Origin: Halioglobus sp.
GTDB lineage: Bacteria > Pseudomonadota > Gammaproteobacteria > Pseudomonadales > Halieaceae
Length of the DNA: 64,000 bases
Reading direction: 5' to 3'
NCBI GenBank assembly: GCA_020443425.1
Contig: JAGRIE010000005.1
Coordinates: 112,476 to 176,475 of the forward strand
The notes under the pieces were generated by a model. It did no database searches. It saw only the letters and a program-made list of their open reading frames with translations, and had not been told where the DNA came from. This document shows, piece after piece, positions 1 through 35,594 of the stretch. The first letter of the stretch is position 1. Each line of letters opens with the position of its first letter. A program made the position numbers and the translations under genes.

Positions 1-985
1 AGTTGCCCATTCCCGGGTCCCGGTGGGCGATTACAATTTTGAGGCTGCCGTCAGCTTCGTAGCGCGCGGAATACTTGTTCACCGTCACATCCAGGTAGCG
101 GTAATCCAGTGACTCCTCCCAGTAATTGTTCACCTGGAAATTCCAGAACTCACACTCCGGCGGATCCACCTCAATCACCAGCGCCTCGTTCTCCCGCAGC
201 GCCCAGTAGCCATACCAGATGGTGTTATTGGGATCCCCCAGGCTGGACGCCTTGTCGATCGGGTTGTAGACCAGTTCGTTCGGCGTGCGCTTGAAGTTCT
301 CGACATGATTGGCGAATATCGCCGCCGTGCTGTTGACGAAATTGGCCGCTGCGGTAAAGCCCTGGGCCAGCTTTTCGGCGGTCAGTCGCTGCGGCGTGGT
401 CTTGCCGTTCAGGGGCTCAATCGTAAACACAGCCATCTGGTCAGTGCGCCGGTTTTTCAGCAACTGCCTGACAATCATCAGGTTGGAGTTGTCCTTCATG
501 GGCAGCCAGTTTTTTGCCTGCGGCCTGCGGCTGACAATAATCTCAATGGAGCCATCCGCCTCGAACTGCATGTCTTTCACATCGAGGAAACCCGTCGGCC
601 CTGTTTTACCACCCTGCCCATAGCCACCGGAGAAAGTGCCGAAGCTCAGGTAGTCAACATCGCCGCGCGTGCCGGTAATCCGGTACTCCATCTCGCTGTC
701 GAGGACCGCGTTGCCGTAGATACAGTCCGGGTTGTCGCAGCCGATTTTCGCGGTTTCATGGCTCAGGCGATAAAACGTCGGCGCCGAGGTGTCGCTGTGC
801 TCAACGTACTGCTCCAGCGACAGGCGCACCAGGCGCGACAGGTAGCGCCAGCCCTCCGCCCGGTCCAACTCGCTGTCGGGTGAACTGTCGCGGAGAATCA
901 CCTCGCCGGCCGCTTTCAGCTGATCGCAGAAATCCGCCCACACTTTGCCGCTGTGCACCCGTTCCTGTGCAGATTCTGATGCCAT
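1..985 (-). CDS. DUF1214 domain protein, C-terminus cut by window edge
   Basis: About 328 codons are visible from an ATG at 985, preceded by GGAG seven bases upstream; the frame is still open at base 1, so the C-terminus is missing. Near the visible end, residues such as NNYWEESLDYRYLD and IAHRDPGMGN match the conserved DUF1214 region, which usually closes with a DPG-x-x-NWLDTAGH type motif. No signal peptide is seen. DUF1214 proteins have no settled activity; they are frequent in mycobacteria and marine gammaproteobacteria beside lipid or steroid catabolic genes. It is the most distal visible gene of a minus-strand run with LuxE/LuxC-like enzymes (45 bp behind the first LuxE-like stop), so a role in the same pathway is inferred. 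Confidence 0.75.
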   Translation of the reverse strand, partial: MASESAQERVHSGKVWADFCDQLKAAGEVILRDSSPDSELDRAEGWRYLSRLVRLSLEQYVEHSDTSAPTFYRLSHETAKIGCDNPDCIYGNAVLDSEMEYRITGTRGDVDYLSFGTFSGGYGQGGKTGPTGFLDVKDMQFEADGSIEIIVSRRPQAKNWLPMKDNSNLMIVRQLLKNRRTDQMAVFTIEPLNGKTTPQRLTAEKLAQGFTAAANFVNSTAAIFANHVENFKRTPNELVYNPIDKASSLGDPNNTIWYGYWALRENEALVIEVDPPECEFWNFQVNNYWEESLDYRYLDVTVNKYSARYEADGSLKIVIAHRDPGMGN

Positions 986-1030
986 TGCTCTTCTCCAGGT
1001 CTAGTGCCGCCAATCGGTTTCGGCAGCTGG

Positions 1031-2344
1031 TTACAAACGCCCGACACTGCCGGGCTCCAGCAGGGGGCCGGGCCGCCCGCAGCTGCAGGTGTCATCCCAG
1101 CGGATGGTGCCGCGGTCGCCGCTGATGATCCCACCCCAGCAATCTTCTGAGTTCAGGTCCAGCACCGCCAGTTGCCCGGACTGTATACCGTGCCGCGGCA
1201 GCGGGGTGCGCGTATTGGGCTGCAGGACGAACGGGATGCTGTGGTAGTGGAAATGGTGCATGCCGTGACGACACGCCTCGGTGGCATTTGCCACCAGTTC
1301 TGACATGCCCCAGCCAGACGACATATTGCCGGCGTCAACACCCACCGCCTGCCGGAATTGTTCCTGCCAGTCATCCGGCAGCAGGGTGCCATCCTTGACA
1401 CCGCCCACCAGCGAAAATACCGAATCGGGTGCAAACGCCCCGGTCACACCGGCCCGCCGGAACGATTGGGTGATCTGCCAGGCTTTGTCAAACGAACCCT
1501 GGAAAAACACCCGCCTGCCGCGGTAATTCTCAATCAGGTTATCGGTCCACTGCCTGATACGCTGCGGGAGCTCGCGCTGGTGGCGCTCCACCGCCTCGCG
1601 GTTGGCCGCGACTATCGGGTCACGGAGGCACTCCGCCAGAGTGCCACTGGCTGCGGCATTGCGCAGCTTGCCCTGGGCAATCGCAAACTCCGGGCTGAGA
1701 AACTCGCCCAGTGCCTGCACCGGGTGCTTCAGGTAGCGCTGCTCCAGGCCGTCGAAGATCGCCTGCAGGATGCGGTACTGTCGCCGCGGGTGCATCGTGA
1801 AATAGGTGACGTCATTGTCGCGCCGGTCCGGATCGAACAGCAGCGGGTTACCCCACACCATACTGTCGACGATCAGGTCGCGGTCGCTCTGTGAGCGCGG
1901 CACAAAACTCAACACCCCGCTGGTGCCGGTGGAGTGACAGACAAATATACCGGCCTGCTCATCCAGGCGGCGACACCATTCGGTGAGGCTGTCACAGCCG
2001 TCCATATCGACCGCGGACAGATCGTGCGAGGTCAGCGTGTCGAGCCAGTCCGTCATGCGGTCATACTGGTTGCTCTCTATCCACGCCAGCTCGTAGCCTT
2101 TATACACGCCATCCTCAAACAAGACGGCGGCGAAGTCCTGCAGGCATTCGTAGGTGGCTGGCTTGTGGGCTGCATACAGCTGGCCGACGAGCGGAATCCG
2201 GTTTGCCTGGCGCTCCAGCTTGCGTTTTGCCGCTGCCAGCTGGAACGCCTCGATGTCGTCGCGGTCGAACTGATCCAGCATCGTATTCAGCGGCGGCCGC
2301 AGCAGTGCAGCAGTCTCATCGAGGTAGGCCTCCAGGCTTGTCAT
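1031..2344 (-). CDS. LuxE-like acyl-protein synthetase (copy 1)
   Basis: A 437-residue protein of the acyl-adenylating LuxE/PaaK-like fold. It carries a clear phosphate-binding motif STGTSGVLSF at about residues 138-147 and ends with a CSCGRPGP motif (Cys420/Cys422) of the type found near the C-terminus of LuxE and phenylacetate-CoA ligase relatives. LuxE activates a carboxylic acid as acyl-AMP and holds it as a thioester before passing it to LuxC. ATG 2344 is chosen; an in-frame GTG at 2374 would add ten residues and overlap the end of the LuxC-like gene. It lies 43 bp downstream of that gene, so co-transcription is likely. The substrate is unknown, and no luxA/luxB pair adjoins it. Confidence 0.72.
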   Translation of the reverse strand: MTSLEAYLDETAALLRPPLNTMLDQFDRDDIEAFQLAAAKRKLERQANRIPLVGQLYAAHKPATYECLQDFAAVLFEDGVYKGYELAWIESNQYDRMTDWLDTLTSHDLSAVDMDGCDSLTEWCRRLDEQAGIFVCHSTGTSGVLSFVPRSQSDRDLIVDSMVWGNPLLFDPDRRDNDVTYFTMHPRRQYRILQAIFDGLEQRYLKHPVQALGEFLSPEFAIAQGKLRNAAASGTLAECLRDPIVAANREAVERHQRELPQRIRQWTDNLIENYRGRRVFFQGSFDKAWQITQSFRRAGVTGAFAPDSVFSLVGGVKDGTLLPDDWQEQFRQAVGVDAGNMSSGWGMSELVANATEACRHGMHHFHYHSIPFVLQPNTRTPLPRHGIQSGQLAVLDLNSEDCWGGIISGDRGTIRWDDTCSCGRPGPLLEPGSVGRL

Positions 2345-2387
2345 GGTCGCCGTACCGTGTGCGCACTGCCGCACTGTGCTGTTGGTG

Positions 2388-3833
2388 TCACCGGGGTTTG
2401 CGCCACTGTGCCGGCACCTCGTTAGTCATACAGTCCTCGGCCAGCACCCAGGTGCTCATTTTGCGCAGCGCCTCATTGCCGTCGTGAGGGTCGACACTGG
2501 GGTCAAAATGCCGCATATAGCCGAGCGACGTGATGCGCTGTACGCCGTGCAGAGCAAGGGTGGTGCGCAGTTCATCGCGCACGCTCTCCGGGTACACACC
2601 GACGGTCTGCACGTCGCGAGTGATGAATGACAGCATTGCATCGTAATCCTGCAGCGGCACGATATTGAGTGTCCGGTATTTGAGCTCGTCGGCAAAATCC
2701 ACCTGATCGCCCTCCAGCGAGATAATCACCCCGCCGCGCTTGTCGCCGCCGATAACATGGTACTCGTCGTCCAGCATCGACAGCATTGCGATCTTGGACT
2801 TGAACCCGGCATCCATATGGATGGCCTCACTGCTGATCTCGGGCGGAAGATTCTGTATTTCGTCGAAGACCATCTGCCCGAACCGCATGAGTTTTTCGAG
2901 GAAATCCTCACTGCCATCGGAAATGGCATACGCGAGCCGACAGTTCGAGCAACCGTTCTGGTTGCCGTTGCCGACATCGTCCGCCAGGCGAATGGCCGCC
3001 TCCCGCATTGTCTCCTCCGAGGCGAGGGTCGCGGCACCGAGAATGGCGCGACTGATTTTGGGATCGAATGTCACCAGGTCAATTCCGGGGCGCACATAGT
3101 TGGAAATATGGCGGATCGACTCGTAGCCGCCCCAGGCCACGATGCGTTCAATATTGCTCGGGTGATACAGCTTGCGCTCGAAGGCCTCGTCGCCGCCGCG
3201 CCAGTACACTGCGCTGTAGGATCTGGTCAGCGGGTGGTCCGGGGCCATATCGATCGCGGTGCGCGCCAGGGCGACGGCCGTGCCGAGTTCATTGGAGGGA
3301 ATCTTCACGATGGCATAGCCTCGGATCAGCGCATTCCTGACAAAGGTCAGTATCGCCCCCGACGGGCCGTTGCCGGCGATCACATGCACAGTGGGAACAC
3401 CGAAGGCATGGATATGCGAGATGCGCCCCGTCGCGCGGTGATACGTCTTCCAGCCTTCGAGGTGCTCGCGCCCCACGGTGTCGATCATCGCCTCCAGTGC
3501 CTCGCGGGTGAAAAAACGCTGCAAATCGGCGAGCGCGCCCTTTATCAGGTACACCGGCACGTCGTTGAACGCTTCAGCCAGTTCCAGCGCCCGCTGCAAA
3601 TGCGGGTTGTCGGCAATATCCAGGCGCTGGCCGAATGCCACCAGGTAATCGACAACTTCGTCGATCGTCAGCTCGTACAGGGCCTCCATCTCGCGCCGCG
3701 AGGGCAGCAGGATGCTAGACAGGTACTTGTTCGGGTCGGGGCAGCTGAAATCGGCACCGTAGCGCCCCTGGTAGGTCACCTCACAGTCCTCTATCACTTC
3801 GCCGCGGGCGACAATGGGAATCTGGTATTGCAT
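2388..3833 (-). CDS. LuxC-like acyl-CoA/acyl-protein reductase
   Basis: A 481-residue protein of the LuxC branch of the aldehyde dehydrogenase superfamily, expected to reduce an enzyme- or CoA-bound acyl group to an aldehyde with NAD(P)H. The cofactor segment VHVIAGNGPSGAILTFVRN (about 149-167), followed by IVKIPS, matches the GN-x-P...KPS pattern of LuxC. The likely nucleophile is Cys295 or Cys298 in GNQNGCSNCRLAY. The start is set at ATG 3833 because AAGGAAG sits eight bases upstream; an in-frame ATG at 3851 and longer options read into the upstream gene. It is flanked on both sides by LuxE-like genes on the same strand, an E-C-E order. The natural product could be a fatty, aryl or branched aldehyde; this cannot be read from the sequence. 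Confidence 0.8.
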   Translation of the reverse strand: MQYQIPIVARGEVIEDCEVTYQGRYGADFSCPDPNKYLSSILLPSRREMEALYELTIDEVVDYLVAFGQRLDIADNPHLQRALELAEAFNDVPVYLIKGALADLQRFFTREALEAMIDTVGREHLEGWKTYHRATGRISHIHAFGVPTVHVIAGNGPSGAILTFVRNALIRGYAIVKIPSNELGTAVALARTAIDMAPDHPLTRSYSAVYWRGGDEAFERKLYHPSNIERIVAWGGYESIRHISNYVRPGIDLVTFDPKISRAILGAATLASEETMREAAIRLADDVGNGNQNGCSNCRLAYAISDGSEDFLEKLMRFGQMVFDEIQNLPPEISSEAIHMDAGFKSKIAMLSMLDDEYHVIGGDKRGGVIISLEGDQVDFADELKYRTLNIVPLQDYDAMLSFITRDVQTVGVYPESVRDELRTTLALHGVQRITSLGYMRHFDPSVDPHDGNEALRKMSTWVLAEDCMTNEVPAQWRKPR

Positions 3834-3879
3834 CGGGGTTTCTTCCTTCATAAAGCTATGTTCCAGTGCGCATTCGCCG

Positions 3880-5313
3880 TCAGGCCCTGAGCAGGAAGTC
3901 CGCAGCGTCATCCAGTGCACCGGCGGTGCCGGCGCAGCCGATTTTATCATCCTGCAACTCGGCGACCCGGCTGATGGCCGCATCCAGGTATGCGCCCTGG
4001 TGACCGCAGCCACAGGGTTGGTCCCAGTTGATCGTCACCCTGTCACTGGTGATATAGCCGCCCCAGGAGGTGTCTGCCAGCAGGTCAAAGAATGCAAAGC
4101 GCCCCTGCTGACGACCGCTGCGCGGCAGCGGCTGGTCCGTTGTCTCATCCAGTACATAGGGGATCATACAGACAGGTATGTGGTAGTTGCCGTGGTCACA
4201 CATCTGCATCCCGGTGAGGCTCTCCTGCATGCCGTAGCCGATGCGGATGGCGCTTTCGGGAATACCCAGCGCCGCGGCGGCACGTGCTTTCCAGTCGTCA
4301 GGTGCTGTGCCGGAGACAAAGCCACCTCCGCAGAAGAAGAAGGAATCAGCTGCATACGCCCCTTTGATGCCCTGCTGTTCAAAGCGCATCGCGAGGTCGT
4401 ACAGCATCTGCATACTGCTGTAGAAGATAATCCGTTGATCGCGATAATCGTCCAGCATGCGCTGCATCAGCGCCTCGATCTGCAGGGGTTTCTCTGCGTT
4501 GAGACGCGCGATCTCATCTTTGCGCGCGAGCAGGGCCGGGTTGATCTGCAGCGAGCCTGCCTCGCCTTTCCTGCTCGCTTCACGGATACGGCCGGCCAGC
4601 GTCAACAGGTCGGCGTCAGTGTACCCGAGCGGGGCATCCACCAGTCCGTTGCCGAAGGTGTCCTCGTAAAAATCAAGGAAACGCCAGCTTCTTGCGCCGG
4701 CGCGGGCGCCGGGATAAATGAGCGGCACCCTGTCCACACCGGACTGCAACGGTGCTGCATCGCCATCAACCGCCTGCATCGCCATCTGGATACCCCACAG
4801 TGTGGCGCGCTGGGCGGTCATCCACTCCTCGCATGTGCGCGGCAGGAAAGCCGCCTTGCCATTGCCGCCGGCGGATATCATCAGGTCGACACTGGACTGT
4901 TGCTGCAATACCGCTATCCAGTCCTCAATCGATTCACAGGAAGACGCATCAACTGCCGCCAGATCAACCGCACACAATTTGCCCAGCCACTTCGTCATGC
5001 GCTTGAAATCGCTGTTCTCCAGCCAGGACTGCGGATAGCTCTGGAATGTCTCCTGGTTGTAGAATATCGGCAGCGCGTCGTCGAAACAGCCAACACTGTC
5101 AATCCCGTGCTGTTGCGCCATCTGCCCTACAATCGCGATACCGCCGACCGCGGCGTCAAATTTACGGCGCAACCACTGCAGGCGGATATCATCCAGCTCT
5201 GCGGGCGGCAGCGAGAACACCACCTCTTCCGGATAATCGATGTAGCAGCTGATTGTATCTTTGAGTTGCTGCCTGTACAGGCCAGCCACCTCCGGATCGA
5301 CGCGCGTGCGCAT
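3880..5313 (-). CDS. LuxE-like protein with altered P-loop (copy 2)
   Basis: A 477-residue paralogue of the 1031-2344 protein: both share the block around W-x-E/I-S/N...RMT-x-WL, the FFxGS/FYSS strand, the GxxGAxAxDS motif and a C-terminal Cys motif (here CGCGHQGAY). The adenylate-binding loop STGTSGVLSF of copy 1 is replaced by SAGGNGKAAF (about 147-156), losing the conserved Thr/Ser residues. It may be a structural or regulatory partner, or use another substrate. ATG 5313 has AGGAGA eight bases upstream. It precedes the LuxC-like gene by 46 bp and follows an SDR gene by 99 bp in the same transcript direction. Family assignment is fair; catalytic competence is doubtful. Confidence 0.65.
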   Translation of the reverse strand: MRTRVDPEVAGLYRQQLKDTISCYIDYPEEVVFSLPPAELDDIRLQWLRRKFDAAVGGIAIVGQMAQQHGIDSVGCFDDALPIFYNQETFQSYPQSWLENSDFKRMTKWLGKLCAVDLAAVDASSCESIEDWIAVLQQQSSVDLMISAGGNGKAAFLPRTCEEWMTAQRATLWGIQMAMQAVDGDAAPLQSGVDRVPLIYPGARAGARSWRFLDFYEDTFGNGLVDAPLGYTDADLLTLAGRIREASRKGEAGSLQINPALLARKDEIARLNAEKPLQIEALMQRMLDDYRDQRIIFYSSMQMLYDLAMRFEQQGIKGAYAADSFFFCGGGFVSGTAPDDWKARAAAALGIPESAIRIGYGMQESLTGMQMCDHGNYHIPVCMIPYVLDETTDQPLPRSGRQQGRFAFFDLLADTSWGGYITSDRVTINWDQPCGCGHQGAYLDAAISRVAELQDDKIGCAGTAGALDDAADFLLRA

Positions 5314-5412
5314 TGCCGGTATCTCCTGTTATTCAAGTTGTGCAAACCCGCCGCCTGCCGGGCGGCCCACATCACACTGCAGCGCGCTGGCGCACCGCGG
5401 GTATCCAATCGC

Positions 5413-6189
5413 CTAGGGTATGATCAGCCCGGCATTCACATCGAGGCTGGCTCCGGTTATCGCCGCAGCGCGGCTGGAAGCCAGGAACAATACTGCCTCC
5501 GCCACCTGGCGGGAACTGGGGATAAAACCCAGCGCCTGCGTCGCAATCAGCCGCTCTACCACGGTGTCTGCGCTGACACCCTCGGCAACGGCCACGCGGT
5601 CAAAATGCGCACGCAGCTGTTCGCTGTCGATATAGCCAGGCATCACATTGTTGACCCTGATATTGTGGGGGCCGAGTTCAACGGCCAGTGTGCGGCTCAG
5701 GTTCTGCAGGGCCCCCTTGCTGGAGCAGTAGGCCCCTGAACCCGCAGCCGGCTCCCGAATCCTGAAGGTATTGATGTTCACGATCGCCCCCGCCGAGACT
5801 TTCAACGCCGGCACCACCGACCGCACCAGGCGCAGCGCACCGGTGACATTGACATCAAAAGTCGGCTGCCATTCGGTGTCGATATCGAGATCACACAAGG
5901 CCTTGAAGCCGCCGTGGTTGAACGCGTTATTCACCAGTACATCGATGCTGCCAAAAGCCTGCAGCGCCCGCTCTGCCAAACCCTCGCACGTCGACTGGTC
6001 AGTGACATCGGTTGGCACGGCGATAGCGCTGCCGCCGTCGGCGTTAATCTGTGCTGCTATGTCGTCGATATACGCGACGTTGCGCGCTGCCAGCACCACG
6101 TTGGCACCCTCCTCAGCGAACATCCTGGCCATGGTGAGGCCTAGCCCGGGGCCGGTGCCCGATACGATTACCGTCTTGTCTGCAAACAT
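5413..6189 (-). CDS. Short-chain dehydrogenase/reductase (SDR)
   Basis: A 258-residue classical SDR. The Rossmann motif TGPGLGLTMA is at about 11-20, the NNAF motif (variant of NNAG) near residue 88, and the catalytic pair is in YCSSKGAL (Tyr-x-x-x-Lys) near residue 154. The end NAGLIIP lacks the usual DGG-x form, and the Gly-rich loop is TGPG rather than TGxxxG with Ala/Ser, so it belongs to a divergent subgroup. These enzymes oxidise or reduce alcohols and ketones with NAD(P). It is the second gene of the minus-strand run that includes the LuxC/LuxE-like genes, suggesting it acts on an intermediate of that pathway, for example an alcohol linked to the aldehyde. The substrate is unknown. Confidence 0.85.
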   Translation of the reverse strand: MFADKTVIVSGTGPGLGLTMARMFAEEGANVVLAARNVAYIDDIAAQINADGGSAIAVPTDVTDQSTCEGLAERALQAFGSIDVLVNNAFNHGGFKALCDLDIDTEWQPTFDVNVTGALRLVRSVVPALKVSAGAIVNINTFRIREPAAGSGAYCSSKGALQNLSRTLAVELGPHNIRVNNVMPGYIDSEQLRAHFDRVAVAEGVSADTVVERLIATQALGFIPSSRQVAEAVLFLASSRAAAITGASLDVNAGLIIP

Positions 6190-6261
6190 CCTGATGCCTA
6201 TCCTGTTAGAAAGCGGTGCCCATTACATCGCCCACGTAGCCTGCCTGTAAACACCCTGCAC

Positions 6262-7335
6262 TCAGGACAGTGCGCCCTTACCTGCGATGCTACTGAAGTC
6301 GAGCCAGCGCCTGAAACCGGGTTCGGACTCTACCAGCCGTGGAATGGCATTGACACAGCACATCGCCGCCGCCTTCATGGCGCCGATATTGTGGTCTTCG
6401 CCGTCCAGTCCAAAATCCAGCTCACAGCGAAAGTTCGGCGAGCCTTCAACAGTGATTCTGTAGGTGCCCGGACCGTTGCCCTGCGGCCAGTGCGGCGCCA
6501 CGTCCTCGCGAAGCCTGGCCACATGTTCCAGTACGATACGCTCCTCGCCGTTTACCACGCCGATCACCTCAAAGCGCAAGCCGGCGGCGGTGCCTTTTTC
6601 GATGGTCCCGGTGGGAATTTCGAAGGTGGCAGGCGCCGGCGCCTGTTCGTGCCGCTGGCGGACTTCGTCGAGTTCCACGCCCAGCGCCTCCGCGATCATG
6701 CGCGCGGAAGGCCCCCAGGTCATGGTGATCGCACCCGGCGACAGCAGTGGGACATCGGTACCAATGGGTTTGCCAAACCCCATGAACATTTCCAGCGTCT
6801 CGGGCTGGTCATAGGAGTCGTACCCCCATATAGTCTGCTGCCGGAGTGTGCGGATATTCTCGGACATGGCAGAGAGCATAATCGGCAGCGCGTCGGGTGC
6901 AAACCCCGGGTCAATACCCGCACAAAGGAAACTCGTCCCGCCCTCGCGACAGGCCTGCTCAATCATCGCGGCCACATCGGGAACAAACTCAAACGGGTTA
7001 ACGAGCGTCACCATGGAACTGGTGACCAGGTTTTTACCGGAGCGCAGGATATCGCACATATCGCCGATACACTCCTGCGGCCTGAAATCACTGGCCGCGG
7101 TATAGCACACAATATCTGCATCCATGGCCAGGATGCTCTCCCTGTCATCGGTCGCCAGGATACCTGTCTCCGGACCACCCACAAGCAGGCCCGCGTCGAC
7201 ACCCACCTTCTGCGGATCGCTCACCATCAGGCCTACCAGTTCGAGGTGGTCCCGGTTGATAATGCCCTGTAACGCATGAATGCCCACATGGCCCGTCGCC
7301 CACTGAATAACTTTATAGTTCACGGTATACCCCAC
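6262..7335 (-). CDS. DapB-fold NAD(P)H-dependent oxidoreductase
   Basis: A 357-residue protein with an N-terminal Rossmann segment (YKVIQWATGHVGIHALQGI, about 7-25) of the type annotated as dihydrodipicolinate reductase-like in mycobacteria and marine gammaproteobacteria. It is about 90 residues longer than true DapB and lacks the DapB substrate motif, so lysine synthesis is unlikely; relatives include amine dehydrogenase-like enzymes of unclear substrate. The start is uncertain: GTG 7335 is listed, and GTG 7323 preceded by GAGTGGGG is equally possible. It is the first gene of the minus-strand run and reads divergently from the ThDP decarboxylase gene across 244 bp. Its role in the cluster is inferred only from position. 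Confidence 0.75.
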   Translation of the reverse strand: MGYTVNYKVIQWATGHVGIHALQGIINRDHLELVGLMVSDPQKVGVDAGLLVGGPETGILATDDRESILAMDADIVCYTAASDFRPQECIGDMCDILRSGKNLVTSSMVTLVNPFEFVPDVAAMIEQACREGGTSFLCAGIDPGFAPDALPIMLSAMSENIRTLRQQTIWGYDSYDQPETLEMFMGFGKPIGTDVPLLSPGAITMTWGPSARMIAEALGVELDEVRQRHEQAPAPATFEIPTGTIEKGTAAGLRFEVIGVVNGEERIVLEHVARLREDVAPHWPQGNGPGTYRITVEGSPNFRCELDFGLDGEDHNIGAMKAAAMCCVNAIPRLVESEPGFRRWLDFSSIAGKGALS

Positions 7336-7579: not shown

Positions 7580-9253
7580 ATGAACCCATCGCCAACCGCC
7601 ACTGACTTCCTCATTCCCGACTACCTCCTGCAGCGTCTGGCCGAAATCGGCATTCACCATATTTTCGGTGTGCCGGGCGACTTCATCATGCCGTTCTTCG
7701 GCCGCATCGCCGGATCCGCTGTAGAACACATCGGCTGCTGCAATGAACTCAATGCCGGCTACGCCGCCGACGGTTACGCGAGGGTGCAGGGTGCCGGGGC
7801 TGTCGTCGTCACCGGTGGCGTCGGCCCGCTCAGTCTTATCAACGCGGTGGCGGGAGCCTACGCCGAGAATGTGCCTGTCGTCGTTATCGCCGGCGGACCC
7901 GGCGTCGCCACCTTCCGGCGGCAGCCCAAAATCCATCACACCATTCCGGGAAACTTCCTCGCGCCAGTGAAGATGATGGCCGAGGTGACCGCTGCCGCTG
8001 TTTTGCTGGACGACGCAGCAACCGCACCGGCACACATCGACGCGGCTATCGCGGCCTGCCTCTCCACCTGCAAACCGGTCTATATTGAAATACCGATGGA
8101 TATACAGAAGGCAGCCTGCGAACGACCCGAACCACTGGCGCTGCCCGAACGCATCTCACCACGTTCCCCAGCGCAGGTGCGCTCTCTCGCCGGCGAGATC
8201 GCAGCCAGGATCGGCAACGGTGAGCGCGTGGTCATCTGTGTCGGCCACGAGGTGGAGCGCTTCCAACTCCAGGCGCAGCTGACGGCACTGATCGACAAGA
8301 CCGGGCTGCCGGTCGCGTCCATGATGTTTGGGAAAGCCGGCTATGTTGAGTGCCTGGACAGTTGTATCGGCCTGTACATGGGCGCGATCTCTCCCGACGA
8401 GGTGCGCACGTTCGTCGAGGACGCCGACCTCGTGCTCTTCATCGGCGCCCATGAAACCGATATGAATATGGGTATCGGCACGGCAAGGTTACAACCCGAG
8501 CGGACGGTCTTCCTGCGCGAGGGCGAGGCCGTGTTCAAAGACAGGACCTGCAGCGATATACCGCTCGGCGATTTTCTCGTCGAACTCACACGACAAAGCG
8601 AGGCCGCGGGTGGTATGCGCTTCCCGGCACAGCCGGTGCAATCGTTCTTCTACAGCCGGAACGAGCCCTTTCAAGCAGCGCCCACAGACGCACTGACCAG
8701 CACCCGTTTCTACCGGCGACTGGTACATTTCATCCAGCCCGGTGATGTGATTGCCGCCGACACCAGTGCCGGCATCAATTCCGCCAGTTTCCAGTTACAG
8801 CAGGATGCCATTTCAATCACCACCCCATACTGGGCGTCAATGGGCATGTGCTTTGGCGCGGCGGTGGGCGCCAGCTTTGCGCCCAGGCTGTCAAACCGTG
8901 TGATAGCACTGGAGGGGGACGGCTCACTGCTGATGACCATCCAGGAGCTGTCGACCCTGGCCCGCTACCAGAAGCCCACCATCGTTTTTGTACTGAACAA
9001 CAAGGGCTATACCGTTGAGCGCATGATCCACGATGGCGCGTTCAACGATATTCCCGAGTGGCGCTACCACAAACTCCCCGAGGTCATTCCCGGCTGTCAC
9101 AGCCTGCAGGTCCGCACCGAGGGAGACCTGGAGCACGCCCTGGCCGCCGCGGGGGAGCACAGCGGGCCGGGGCCCCTGATTATCGAAGTCCACCTGGACG
9201 CGCGCGACGTGTCTGACCTGTTCCAGGTGTTTACCCGCTTTTTCCAGCCCTGA
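7580..9253 (+). CDS. ThDP-dependent 2-keto-acid decarboxylase family enzyme
   Basis: A 557-residue member of the pyruvate/indolepyruvate decarboxylase group. The catalytic Glu lies in CCNELNAGYAADGYAR (about residue 56), the paired His motif of decarboxylases in KIHHTIPGNF (about 118-119), and the ThDP/Mg motif runs from GDGSLLMT to NNKGYTVE (about 453-482). The full three-domain length is present. Presence of HH, Glu and NNKGYTVE argues for a decarboxylase making an aldehyde from a 2-keto acid, rather than acetolactate synthase. It is transcribed away from the LuxC/LuxE-like run, so both arms may generate or handle aldehydes. The upstream ribosome site is weak (CCGGAAT). The substrate (aromatic or branched keto acid) is not determinable. 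Confidence 0.8.
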   Translation: MNPSPTATDFLIPDYLLQRLAEIGIHHIFGVPGDFIMPFFGRIAGSAVEHIGCCNELNAGYAADGYARVQGAGAVVVTGGVGPLSLINAVAGAYAENVPVVVIAGGPGVATFRRQPKIHHTIPGNFLAPVKMMAEVTAAAVLLDDAATAPAHIDAAIAACLSTCKPVYIEIPMDIQKAACERPEPLALPERISPRSPAQVRSLAGEIAARIGNGERVVICVGHEVERFQLQAQLTALIDKTGLPVASMMFGKAGYVECLDSCIGLYMGAISPDEVRTFVEDADLVLFIGAHETDMNMGIGTARLQPERTVFLREGEAVFKDRTCSDIPLGDFLVELTRQSEAAGGMRFPAQPVQSFFYSRNEPFQAAPTDALTSTRFYRRLVHFIQPGDVIAADTSAGINSASFQLQQDAISITTPYWASMGMCFGAAVGASFAPRLSNRVIALEGDGSLLMTIQELSTLARYQKPTIVFVLNNKGYTVERMIHDGAFNDIPEWRYHKLPEVIPGCHSLQVRTEGDLEHALAAAGEHSGPGPLIIEVHLDARDVSDLFQVFTRFFQP

Positions 9254-10528: not shown

Positions 10529-11629
10529 ATGAGTCAGGAATTTCCGGAATTGGGTATTTACACACTGCCCGGCAGAATCAGCGATCCACAGCGAACCCTT
10601 GAGGAGGTGCCACTGGCCGAAGAGCTGGGTATCGGTTCGATATGGCCTGCGGAGCGGTACGACTACAAGAATGTCGAAGTCCTGTGCGGGGCCGCCGCCG
10701 CCATTACATCCTCGATAAAGATTGCCACCGGCCTGATGAACTACCCCACCCACCATCCGATGGAACTCTGCTCGTTCGGCGCAACCATGAGCCACCTCTC
10801 TGGCAATCGCTTTGCCATGGGCTTCGGTCGCGGCTTTGATCGACTGTACGATGTATTCGGCTCACCGCGCGCCAATATGCAGGGGTTGAGTGAGATCCCG
10901 GAAGTCCTGCGCAGCCTGTGGAACAACGGCATGTTCTCCGGCGAGAACTCGATCGGCAAGTTTCCCTACCTGTTTATGAAAACCCCGCCGGACAATGCAC
11001 CCCCGATGCTGCTCGGTGCAATGGGACCGAAGACACTGGCACTCGCCGGCCGTCACTACGACGGCGTACTGCTACACCCGTTCCTGACAGACAGGGCGAT
11101 TAGCGAGTCGGCAGAGATAGTGCGCAGCGCCGCCGAACAGGCCGGTCGTGACCGGAATGCCTGCAAGGTGTGGGCAACACTGGTCAGTGCAGCCGACCAG
11201 AGCGAGGAGGAGACGCTGGCGATAGGCCCGGCCCGCCTGCTCACTTATGTGCATATGGACGGCTATGGCGAGTTGATGTGCAAAATAAACGGCTGGGACC
11301 CTGCTGTCCTGAGAGAGATCCGCAACCACCCGCTGTTCGAAGGCGGAAAATCCGCTGACCAGGACTTCACTCGCTACGAGACGGCGGAGGTGACGTCGCT
11401 GTTCCCCGACCACTGGATGCCGGAGTCAGCCGCACTGGGTAGCGCAGAGCACTGCGCCAATCGCCTCAACGACCAGTTTGATGCCGGCGCTGACGGCGTC
11501 CTGATTCACGGCAGTCTGCCGCGGCAGGTAAAAACCCTGCTGGCAGCGTATCGAAAGGTCAGGCGCAAAGACTACTTCGAGCAGCACGACCCGTGGTTTG
11601 CACCGTCACCGGTCGGCACTGGCTTCTAG
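10529..11629 (+). CDS. LLM-class (luciferase-like) flavin/F420-dependent oxidoreductase
   Basis: A 366-residue TIM-barrel protein of the bacterial luciferase superfamily. Typical features are the N-terminal strand PELGIYTLPG, then SIWPAERYDYKNVEVL, GLMNYPTHHPMELCSFG, RFAMGFGRGFD, and MLLGAMGPKTLALAGRHYDG, the flavin phosphate-binding strand. Members act as flavin-dependent monooxygenases or F420-dependent dehydrogenases; the sequence recalls a mycobacterial-type F420 subgroup, but this is memory-based. It is the first gene of a plus-strand cassette, 60 bp before a haloalkane dehalogenase. It lacks a LuxB-like partner gene, so light emission is not implied, yet it lies within 3.2 kb of the LuxC/LuxE-like run. 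Substrate unknown. Confidence 0.85.
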   Translation: MSQEFPELGIYTLPGRISDPQRTLEEVPLAEELGIGSIWPAERYDYKNVEVLCGAAAAITSSIKIATGLMNYPTHHPMELCSFGATMSHLSGNRFAMGFGRGFDRLYDVFGSPRANMQGLSEIPEVLRSLWNNGMFSGENSIGKFPYLFMKTPPDNAPPMLLGAMGPKTLALAGRHYDGVLLHPFLTDRAISESAEIVRSAAEQAGRDRNACKVWATLVSAADQSEEETLAIGPARLLTYVHMDGYGELMCKINGWDPAVLREIRNHPLFEGGKSADQDFTRYETAEVTSLFPDHWMPESAALGSAEHCANRLNDQFDAGADGVLIHGSLPRQVKTLLAAYRKVRRKDYFEQHDPWFAPSPVGTGF

Positions 11630-11689
11630 CACCCCGCCGGGGCTGGCCGCCTGATTCCGCTAACGGACATTCAATAAGGAGGTTTAACC

Positions 11690-12568
11690 ATGCTGTCAGA
11701 AACCCTGGATTACCAGAAGAAATTTGCCGACGTCAACGGCAGGCAGATCGCCTACATCGAGCAGGGCAGCGGTGACCCGATCGTGCTGCTGCACGGCAAC
11801 CCGACCTCCTCATTCCTGTGGCGCAATGTGTTACCTGAACTCACTGCCAGTGGTCGCGTGATTGTGCCGGACCTTATCGGCCATGGCGATTCAGCGAAAC
11901 TTCCGGCCAGTGAAGGCCCGGAGCGTTACACGCTGGAGGTCGCCTACGATTTCGTGAACGGCCTGCTCGAGGTTATCGGTGCCGACGACAATGTGACTCT
12001 GGTGATTCACGACTGGGGCAGCGCTATCGGCTTTATGTGGGCGATGCGACATCCGGCAGCCGTGAAAGGTGTCGCCTATATGGAAGGCATCGTCAAACCG
12101 GTGACCTGGGCTGACTGGCCGGAAGGCGCCGTCGGTATCTTCAAGGGCTTTCGCTCCGACAAGGGCGAGGACCTGATCCTCAACCGCAATATGTTCATCG
12201 AGGCCGTGCTGCCCAGTTCAGTGCTGCGGACACTGACAGAGGCAGAAATGGCAGCCTACCGCGCACCCCACCTGGAGCCCGGGGACCGGCAGCCACTGCT
12301 GAACTGGCCGCGACAAATCCCGATAGAGGGCGAGCCCGAGGATGTGGTGGCACTGGTCGACGAATACGGCGCCTTCATGGCCGGCAGCCAGATACCGAAA
12401 CTGTTTATCAACGCAGATCCGGGCTCCATACTCACAGGCCCGCAGCGCGAATTCTGCCGCAGTTGGCCGAACCAGCAGGAAGTGACTGTGACAGGCCTGC
12501 ATTTCATCCAGGAGGACTCGCCGGTTGAGATCGGCCGGGCCGTTGCCAACTGGTTATCCAAGCTTTAA
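11690..12568 (+). CDS. Haloalkane dehalogenase, subfamily II type
   Basis: A 292-residue alpha/beta hydrolase whose active site lines up with LinB/DhaA: HGNPTSSFLWRN with halide-binding Asn37, nucleophile Asp108 and halide-binding Trp109 in IHDWGSAIGF, acid Glu132 in AYMEGIVKP, and base His271 in GLHFIQEDSP. All five diagnostic positions are kept, so hydrolytic cleavage of carbon-halogen bonds is the expected reaction. A near-perfect AAGGAGG ribosome site lies seven to eight bases before the ATG. No signal peptide, so cytoplasmic. Marine bacteria carry such enzymes often, with natural halocarbons as presumed substrates. Renilla luciferase belongs to the same fold family, but the intact Asp-His-Glu triad and Trp109 favour a dehalogenase. 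Confidence 0.88.
   Translation: MLSETLDYQKKFADVNGRQIAYIEQGSGDPIVLLHGNPTSSFLWRNVLPELTASGRVIVPDLIGHGDSAKLPASEGPERYTLEVAYDFVNGLLEVIGADDNVTLVIHDWGSAIGFMWAMRHPAAVKGVAYMEGIVKPVTWADWPEGAVGIFKGFRSDKGEDLILNRNMFIEAVLPSSVLRTLTEAEMAAYRAPHLEPGDRQPLLNWPRQIPIEGEPEDVVALVDEYGAFMAGSQIPKLFINADPGSILTGPQREFCRSWPNQQEVTVTGLHFIQEDSPVEIGRAVANWLSKL

Positions 12569-33359: not shown

Positions 33360-35594
<2,235 letters not shown>

Follow-up and report, generated by a model that had tools for sequence, protein, structure and literature searches.

A LuxC-family reductase gene between two complementarily degenerate LuxE paralogues: a candidate split acyl-protein synthetase in Halioglobus

Why should a gene for a LuxC-family acyl reductase have a LuxE-like gene directly on each side of it? 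The question is raised by the left end of a 64-kb stretch of Halioglobus sp. DNA (contig JAGRIE010000005.1, positions 112,476 to 176,475; the window, hereafter), where six co-directional genes encode a DapB/Ord-fold protein, a short-chain dehydrogenase/reductase (SDR), a LuxE paralogue (LuxEa), a LuxC-family protein (LuxC1), a second LuxE paralogue (LuxEb) and a DUF1214 protein. An initial annotation had described this same-strand order, had read it as an acid reductase of the LuxC/LuxE type and had called the double LuxE unusual, and our analysis bears out all three statements. The core of the run is three genes on the reverse strand, LuxEb (1031..2374), LuxC1 (2388..3851, with its start at 3851 or 3833) and LuxEa (3880..5313), to which we refer in transcriptional order as the LuxEa-LuxC1-LuxEb triad.

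LuxC1 belongs to the LuxC acyl reductase family, scoring 141.2 bits against PF05893 (curated cut-off 21). Its nucleophile Cys (residue 301 counting from 3851; codon 2949..2951) is invariant in the 18 LuxC aligned, and across 386 aligned columns it falls on the Cys of Photorhabdus LuxC. LuxC1 falls short of the NCBIfam equivalog for luminous LuxC, NF052251, with 117.8 bits against a cut-off of 750. For the LuxE proteins we compared LuxEa and LuxEb with LuxE2, the complete LuxE of a second cluster (LuxE2-LuxC2-sulfotransferase; contig positions 102187-106276, about 6 kb from the window's left edge). None of the three matches a Pfam family at E<=10, PF04443 (LuxE) included, and PF04443 matches 12 of the 68 members of an alignment of the three at E<=0.01. 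Sequence-profile and predicted-fold comparisons relate LuxEa and LuxEb to the LuxE of PDB 7xc6, and LuxEb is predicted to be an adenylating enzyme of the LuxE/PaaK fold. VIA-align lists 7xc6 for LuxEb, 7xc6 is not among the matches it lists for LuxEa, and it is also not among the best 50 Foldseek matches.

The triad occurs in five genomes: three of the Halioglobus group, namely the window's own, Halioglobus japonicus BC5_1 (G128) and Halioglobus sp. NAT121 (G116), and two known from contigs of metagenome-assembled genomes (MAGs), one of 8 kb assigned to Acidobacteria (L072) and one of 12 kb assigned to Novosphingobium (L074). We aligned their LuxE proteins with relatives (113 rows with two fragments of <300 residues excluded, 101 after duplicate removal), among them 91 single LuxE that are neighbours of the best LuxC matches, many of them close kin. 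Every one of these 91 has both the [ST]xG[TS]xG ATP-binding loop and the C-terminal acyl-Cys. LuxEb keeps the loop in all five genomes, in the window as the STGTSG that the initial annotation had singled out (residues 148-153; 1916..1933), and has the tail Cys in none. LuxEa has lost the loop Thr and has an intact loop in no genome, reading SAGGNG in the window (residues 147-152; 4858..4875) and in G128, SAGAEG in G116 and SASADG on the two MAG contigs, with G or A at loop position 4 where the singles all have T or S. It keeps the tail Cys in four of five genomes. Loop and tail Cys thus never stand together in LuxEa or in LuxEb. The LuxEa tail Cys (residue 460; codon 3934..3936) shares its column with Cys360 of Photorhabdus LuxE in two MAFFT alignments. 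PMC8301110 reports that the equivalent residue of Photobacterium phosphoreum LuxE, Cys364, is where acyl transfer takes place, the acyl group then moving on to the LuxC Cys. A hidden or frameshifted tail 3' of LuxEb was considered and excluded, as three frames over 400 bases hold no tail-like motif in any of the five genomes.

How the two LuxE are related is answered by their tree, a check that the initial annotation had proposed. LuxEa and LuxEb each form one clade (100/100 for both) and are sisters (98/95), and LuxE2 is placed elsewhere, with rows from Paraburkholderia, Sphingobium and Cellvibrionales. The possibility that the lost motifs themselves had produced the sister grouping was rejected, since a tree made by a quick method without the trait columns and six divergent rows gave the same result. 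In LuxEb, conservation is higher in the loop region than in the remainder of the protein in all 10 pairs, and the LuxEa tail, in the four species that have one, exceeds the remainder of LuxEa in conservation in five of six pairs and equals it in the sixth.

We favour, at about even odds (roughly 0.48), a split acyl-protein synthetase that feeds LuxC1. Slightly more tentatively, we suggest that LuxE was duplicated and that complementary losses then left LuxEb able to use ATP but with no acyl carrier, and LuxEa as the acyl carrier but no longer able to use ATP, which would place activation, carriage and reduction on three chains. On our reading the triad encodes a LuxC/LuxE-type reductase that takes acids to aldehydes with ATP and NAD(P)H and has no link to luminescence. 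LuxEb would activate the acid as acyl-AMP, LuxEa would take over the acyl group as a thioester on its tail Cys and pass it to the Cys of LuxC1, and LuxC1 would reduce the bound acyl group to the aldehyde. We infer these catalytic steps, a physical complex of the three proteins and a substrate that is perhaps a steroid- or isoprenoid-type acid. No luxA, luxB or luxD is among the neighbours named (the genome was not searched for them), and the two luciferase-like proteins encoded close by match the F420-type families TIGR03619 and TIGR03857.

The chief alternative gives LuxEa no catalytic part: LuxEb would pass its acyl-AMP straight to the LuxC1 Cys, or do so by way of coenzyme A (CoA), with LuxEa acting as a scaffold or a regulator and with a structural role for the LuxEa tail Cys. 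We consider this possible but doubtful. It sits poorly with the retention of the LuxEa tail Cys in four of five genomes, with a tail conserved at least as much as the rest of the protein in all six pairs, and with the alignment of that Cys on the acyl-Cys of luminous LuxE.

A further proposal, that of the initial annotation, concerns the substrate and is compatible with the split mechanism: all six genes together would form a pathway dedicated to a single side-chain acid of a steroid or terpenoid. The initial annotation had treated the six genes as one unit and had suggested looking for co-occurrence of the six families, and this part of it did not stand. All six are together only in the window genome and G128, the two genomes to which conservation of the DapB-fold, SDR and DUF1214 partners is confined. 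G116 carries the triad with no DapB-fold or DUF1214 gene within 50 kb, and the short contigs L072 and L074 show neither. All three partners lie on the reverse strand. The DUF1214 gene (1..985) ends about 100 bases beyond the window's left edge; the SDR gene (5413..6189) has an 87% orthologue adjoining the triad in G128 and a 39% relative about 4 kb from the triad on L074; and the gene for the DapB/2,4-diaminopentanoate-dehydrogenase-like oxidoreductase (6262..7335) adjoins the triad only in the window genome and G128.

What speaks for a dedicated pathway is the setting. The window genome and G128 share a syntenic island of about 42 kb, in which one TauD gene is displaced, and the island holds genes for a steroid 3-ketoacyl-CoA-thiolase-type protein (602.7 bits, cut-off 515), a PRK07855 lipid-transfer protein of the thiolase fold (637.4 bits, cut-off 469), a CasI-like CoA ligase (660.9 bits, under its cut-off of 900), a ChsH2-type protein (PF01796, 64 bits, cut-off 27.1) and a cytochrome P450. 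By resemblance of name and family, G128 is probably the cholesterol-grown sponge isolate BC51, which PMC5790920 lists as a Halieaceae isolate from a sponge in its table of steroid degraders; growth with cholesterol is reported there for six such isolates, of which one belongs to Halieaceae. The steroid guess gains contextual support from these steroid-side-chain-type genes and the probable growth of G128 on cholesterol, and in these two genomes the genetic setting leans towards a steroid or a comparable isoprenoid as the substrate. In G116, however, the triad lies on contig C57 and the closest PRK07855 homologue (90%) on C4, which argues against a fixed steroid link. At E<=1e-60 the Acidobacteria MAG has no PRK07855 homologue and the Novosphingobium MAG only ones of 40-41%. 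With no DapB-fold or DUF1214 gene on the short contigs L072 and L074 either, we regard a dedicated six-gene pathway as unlikely, though not negligible.

Returning to the split acyl-protein synthetase, several observations weigh against it. LuxEa of L072 ends in WDQPCG and a stop codon ahead of the tail, with the LuxC1 ATG 11 bases on, so that neither LuxE of this contig has a tail Cys; the tailless copy argues against the split mechanism or is an exception. The tail column depends on a gapped alignment, and the profile comparison ends ahead of the tail. The loop of Photorhabdus LuxE reads SSGTNG, with N at position 5, which leaves the Thr/Ser-to-Gly/Ala change at position 4 as the diagnostic one, and this change may weaken ATP binding rather than abolish it. 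The other site residues checked, E353 and D413 (LuxE2 numbering), are kept in 101 of 101 rows, LuxEa included, as an active enzyme would show. Nor is the degenerate LuxEa loop drifting freely, being more conserved than the rest of the protein in three of six pairs and less so in three. The long stems of LuxEa (0.95) and LuxEb (1.25) make a long-branch grouping of the two possible, and the losses probably represent one event per lineage, not five. Ratios of nonsynonymous to synonymous substitution rates (dN/dS), 0.10-0.31 for LuxEa and 0.09-0.41 for LuxEb, come with dS near saturation. Finally, a complete LuxE2 lies near the triad in the three Halioglobus genomes and could serve LuxC1.

Some of the same evidence would suit two LuxE that are both effectively complete, with different substrates or a homodimer-like role and with their motif losses tolerated: loop position 5 is variable in luminous LuxE, and E353 and D413 are kept in all 101 rows. 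We think this improbable given the separation at position 4 (T/S in 91 of 91 singles, G/A in five of five LuxEa) and the Cys tail missing from every LuxEb. Least probable of all is a decaying triad whose LuxC1 is supplied by the complete LuxE2 of the neighbouring pair: each of the three Halioglobus genomes does have LuxE2-LuxC2 and the triad inside a stretch of 15 kb, but dN/dS is well below 1, the frames are open and the motifs conserved in five genomes, and no complete LuxE was found in the Novosphingobium MAG, which is possibly incomplete. Searched with a LuxE profile, the three Halioglobus genomes yield three LuxE genes apiece, and the two MAGs, either of which may be incomplete, yield LuxEa and LuxEb alone; the Acidobacteria MAG has an additional partial LuxC at a contig end.

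How widespread is the arrangement? Homologues of LuxC1 at E<=1e-10 occur in 13 of 140 genomes of the family, and besides the window genome only G128 (83%; 87% over the trimmed protein) and G116 (74%) exceed 45% identity; the MAG copies are 79% (L072) and 74% (L074) identical. A LuxC1 search of 84,980 species genomes matched 472 stretches, of which 459 encode a LuxC relative. We surveyed the best 78 of these 459 loci, and triads with a more distant LuxC could sit among the rest. All 78 have a LuxE match, placed directly on both sides of LuxC in four (L071-L074), only upstream in 69, only downstream in one and not adjacent in four. LuxC of LuxC1-like identity was found in one of 195 genomes of L074's genus and one of 38 of L072's class, in each case the genome already known. 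As the Acidobacteria copy nests among the Halioglobus copies in the LuxEb tree, transfer or misbinning is likely, and both L072 and L074 could be misbinned. Plasmids were considered as carriers of the triad and set aside: with LuxC1 as the only query, 35 of 72,556 plasmid records had LuxC matches, all below 60% identity.

Around these loci we noted several further features. Upstream of the triad on L072 (322-2747) lie genes for a class III aminotransferase and a luciferase-like monooxygenase, and 3' of it is what its translation suggests is an integrase-like fragment. In all four plasmid neighbourhoods inspected (L175-L178), the gene just before LuxC, annotated as a hypothetical protein, is a LuxE of the same family, 37-44% identical to the LuxE queries. 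On a Caballeronia plasmid (L175:8983-19366), LuxE-LuxC is followed by an alcohol dehydrogenase gene and, about 7 kb on, by a gene of the wax ester synthase family; an alcohol-dehydrogenase-like gene also stands 3' of LuxC in many Pseudomonas and Paraburkholderia loci. Asgard archaeal MAG loci (L131, L132, L146) carry LuxE and LuxC with intact motifs.

Reading left of base 1, as the initial annotation had advised, reached the end of the DUF1214 gene and, after two nitrilase-type genes, a TauD-type gene and a TonB receptor gene, the LuxE2-LuxC2-sulfotransferase cluster. In G116 the same-strand run is LuxEa-LuxC1-LuxEb, a thiamine pyrophosphate (TPP)-dependent enzyme, a P450, LuxE2 and LuxC2. Its TPP enzyme has a 54% homologue adjoining a LuxC in the Acidobacteria MAG and differs from the window's divergent TPP-dependent decarboxylase-like gene (7580..9253, forward strand), whose best NCBIfam match is indolepyruvate decarboxylase, under its cut-off. 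Genes for TPP-dependent enzymes stand next to those of LuxC2 type, a pairing seen in G116, the Acidobacteria MAG and Paraburkholderia caffeinitolerans (L151, L173, L174, L128) that hints at aldehyde carboligation. Elsewhere in the window, 10529-12568 encodes an F420-type luciferase-like monooxygenase (TIGR03857, 341.6 bits) and a haloalkane-dehalogenase-type protein (388.5 bits, cut-off 241), and 33360-35555 a 731-residue protein with a PF00141 peroxidase domain; no Rfam family matched in the window.

If LuxEa and LuxEb do divide the work, the triad would be a natural dissection of the LuxE reaction, its two half-reactions separately assayable, and a clean case of enzyme duplication followed by complementary loss. 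It would also offer a functional lead for a widely distributed LuxE family of which Pfam recognizes only 12 of 68 members and which is labelled hypothetical protein in the four plasmid neighbourhoods inspected. An acid reductase with separable parts, in a bacterium that probably degrades cholesterol, would open to experiment what becomes of steroid-type acids in the marine bacteria of sponges.

Among known systems, PaaK-type AMP ligases (4r1m, 2y27, 6hdx) make acyl-CoA; LuxEb stops where their C-terminal part starts, and LuxEa has a short Cys tail. The EhpF/EhpG pair of phenazine biosynthesis (PDB 3hgu, 3hgv, 3l2k) likewise includes a short adenylating enzyme, with fold matches to the models of both LuxEa and LuxEb, and is not known to include a second adenylating paralogue. 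None of the literature matches listed deals with this operon or with LuxE in split or paired form. The pairs of LuxE and an 'acyl-CoA reductase' in Pseudomonas, Paraburkholderia, Sphingobium, Mycobacterium and Asgard archaea belong to the same LuxE and LuxC families. Their LuxE keeps loop and Cys in 91 of 91, unlike the LuxE of the triad, and the other 74 of 78 loci lack the second LuxE directly beside LuxC that the triad has. With the luminous fatty acid reductase LuxC-LuxE (PDB 7xc6; Photorhabdus) the triad shares LuxC homology including the Cys, genes that lie side by side and, counting LuxEa and LuxEb together, the fold of LuxE, its ATP loop and the alignment column of its C-terminal Cys. 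The luminous system has luxD and luxAB, of which the triad has none among the neighbours named, and it has one complete LuxE where the triad has two complementary degenerate ones.

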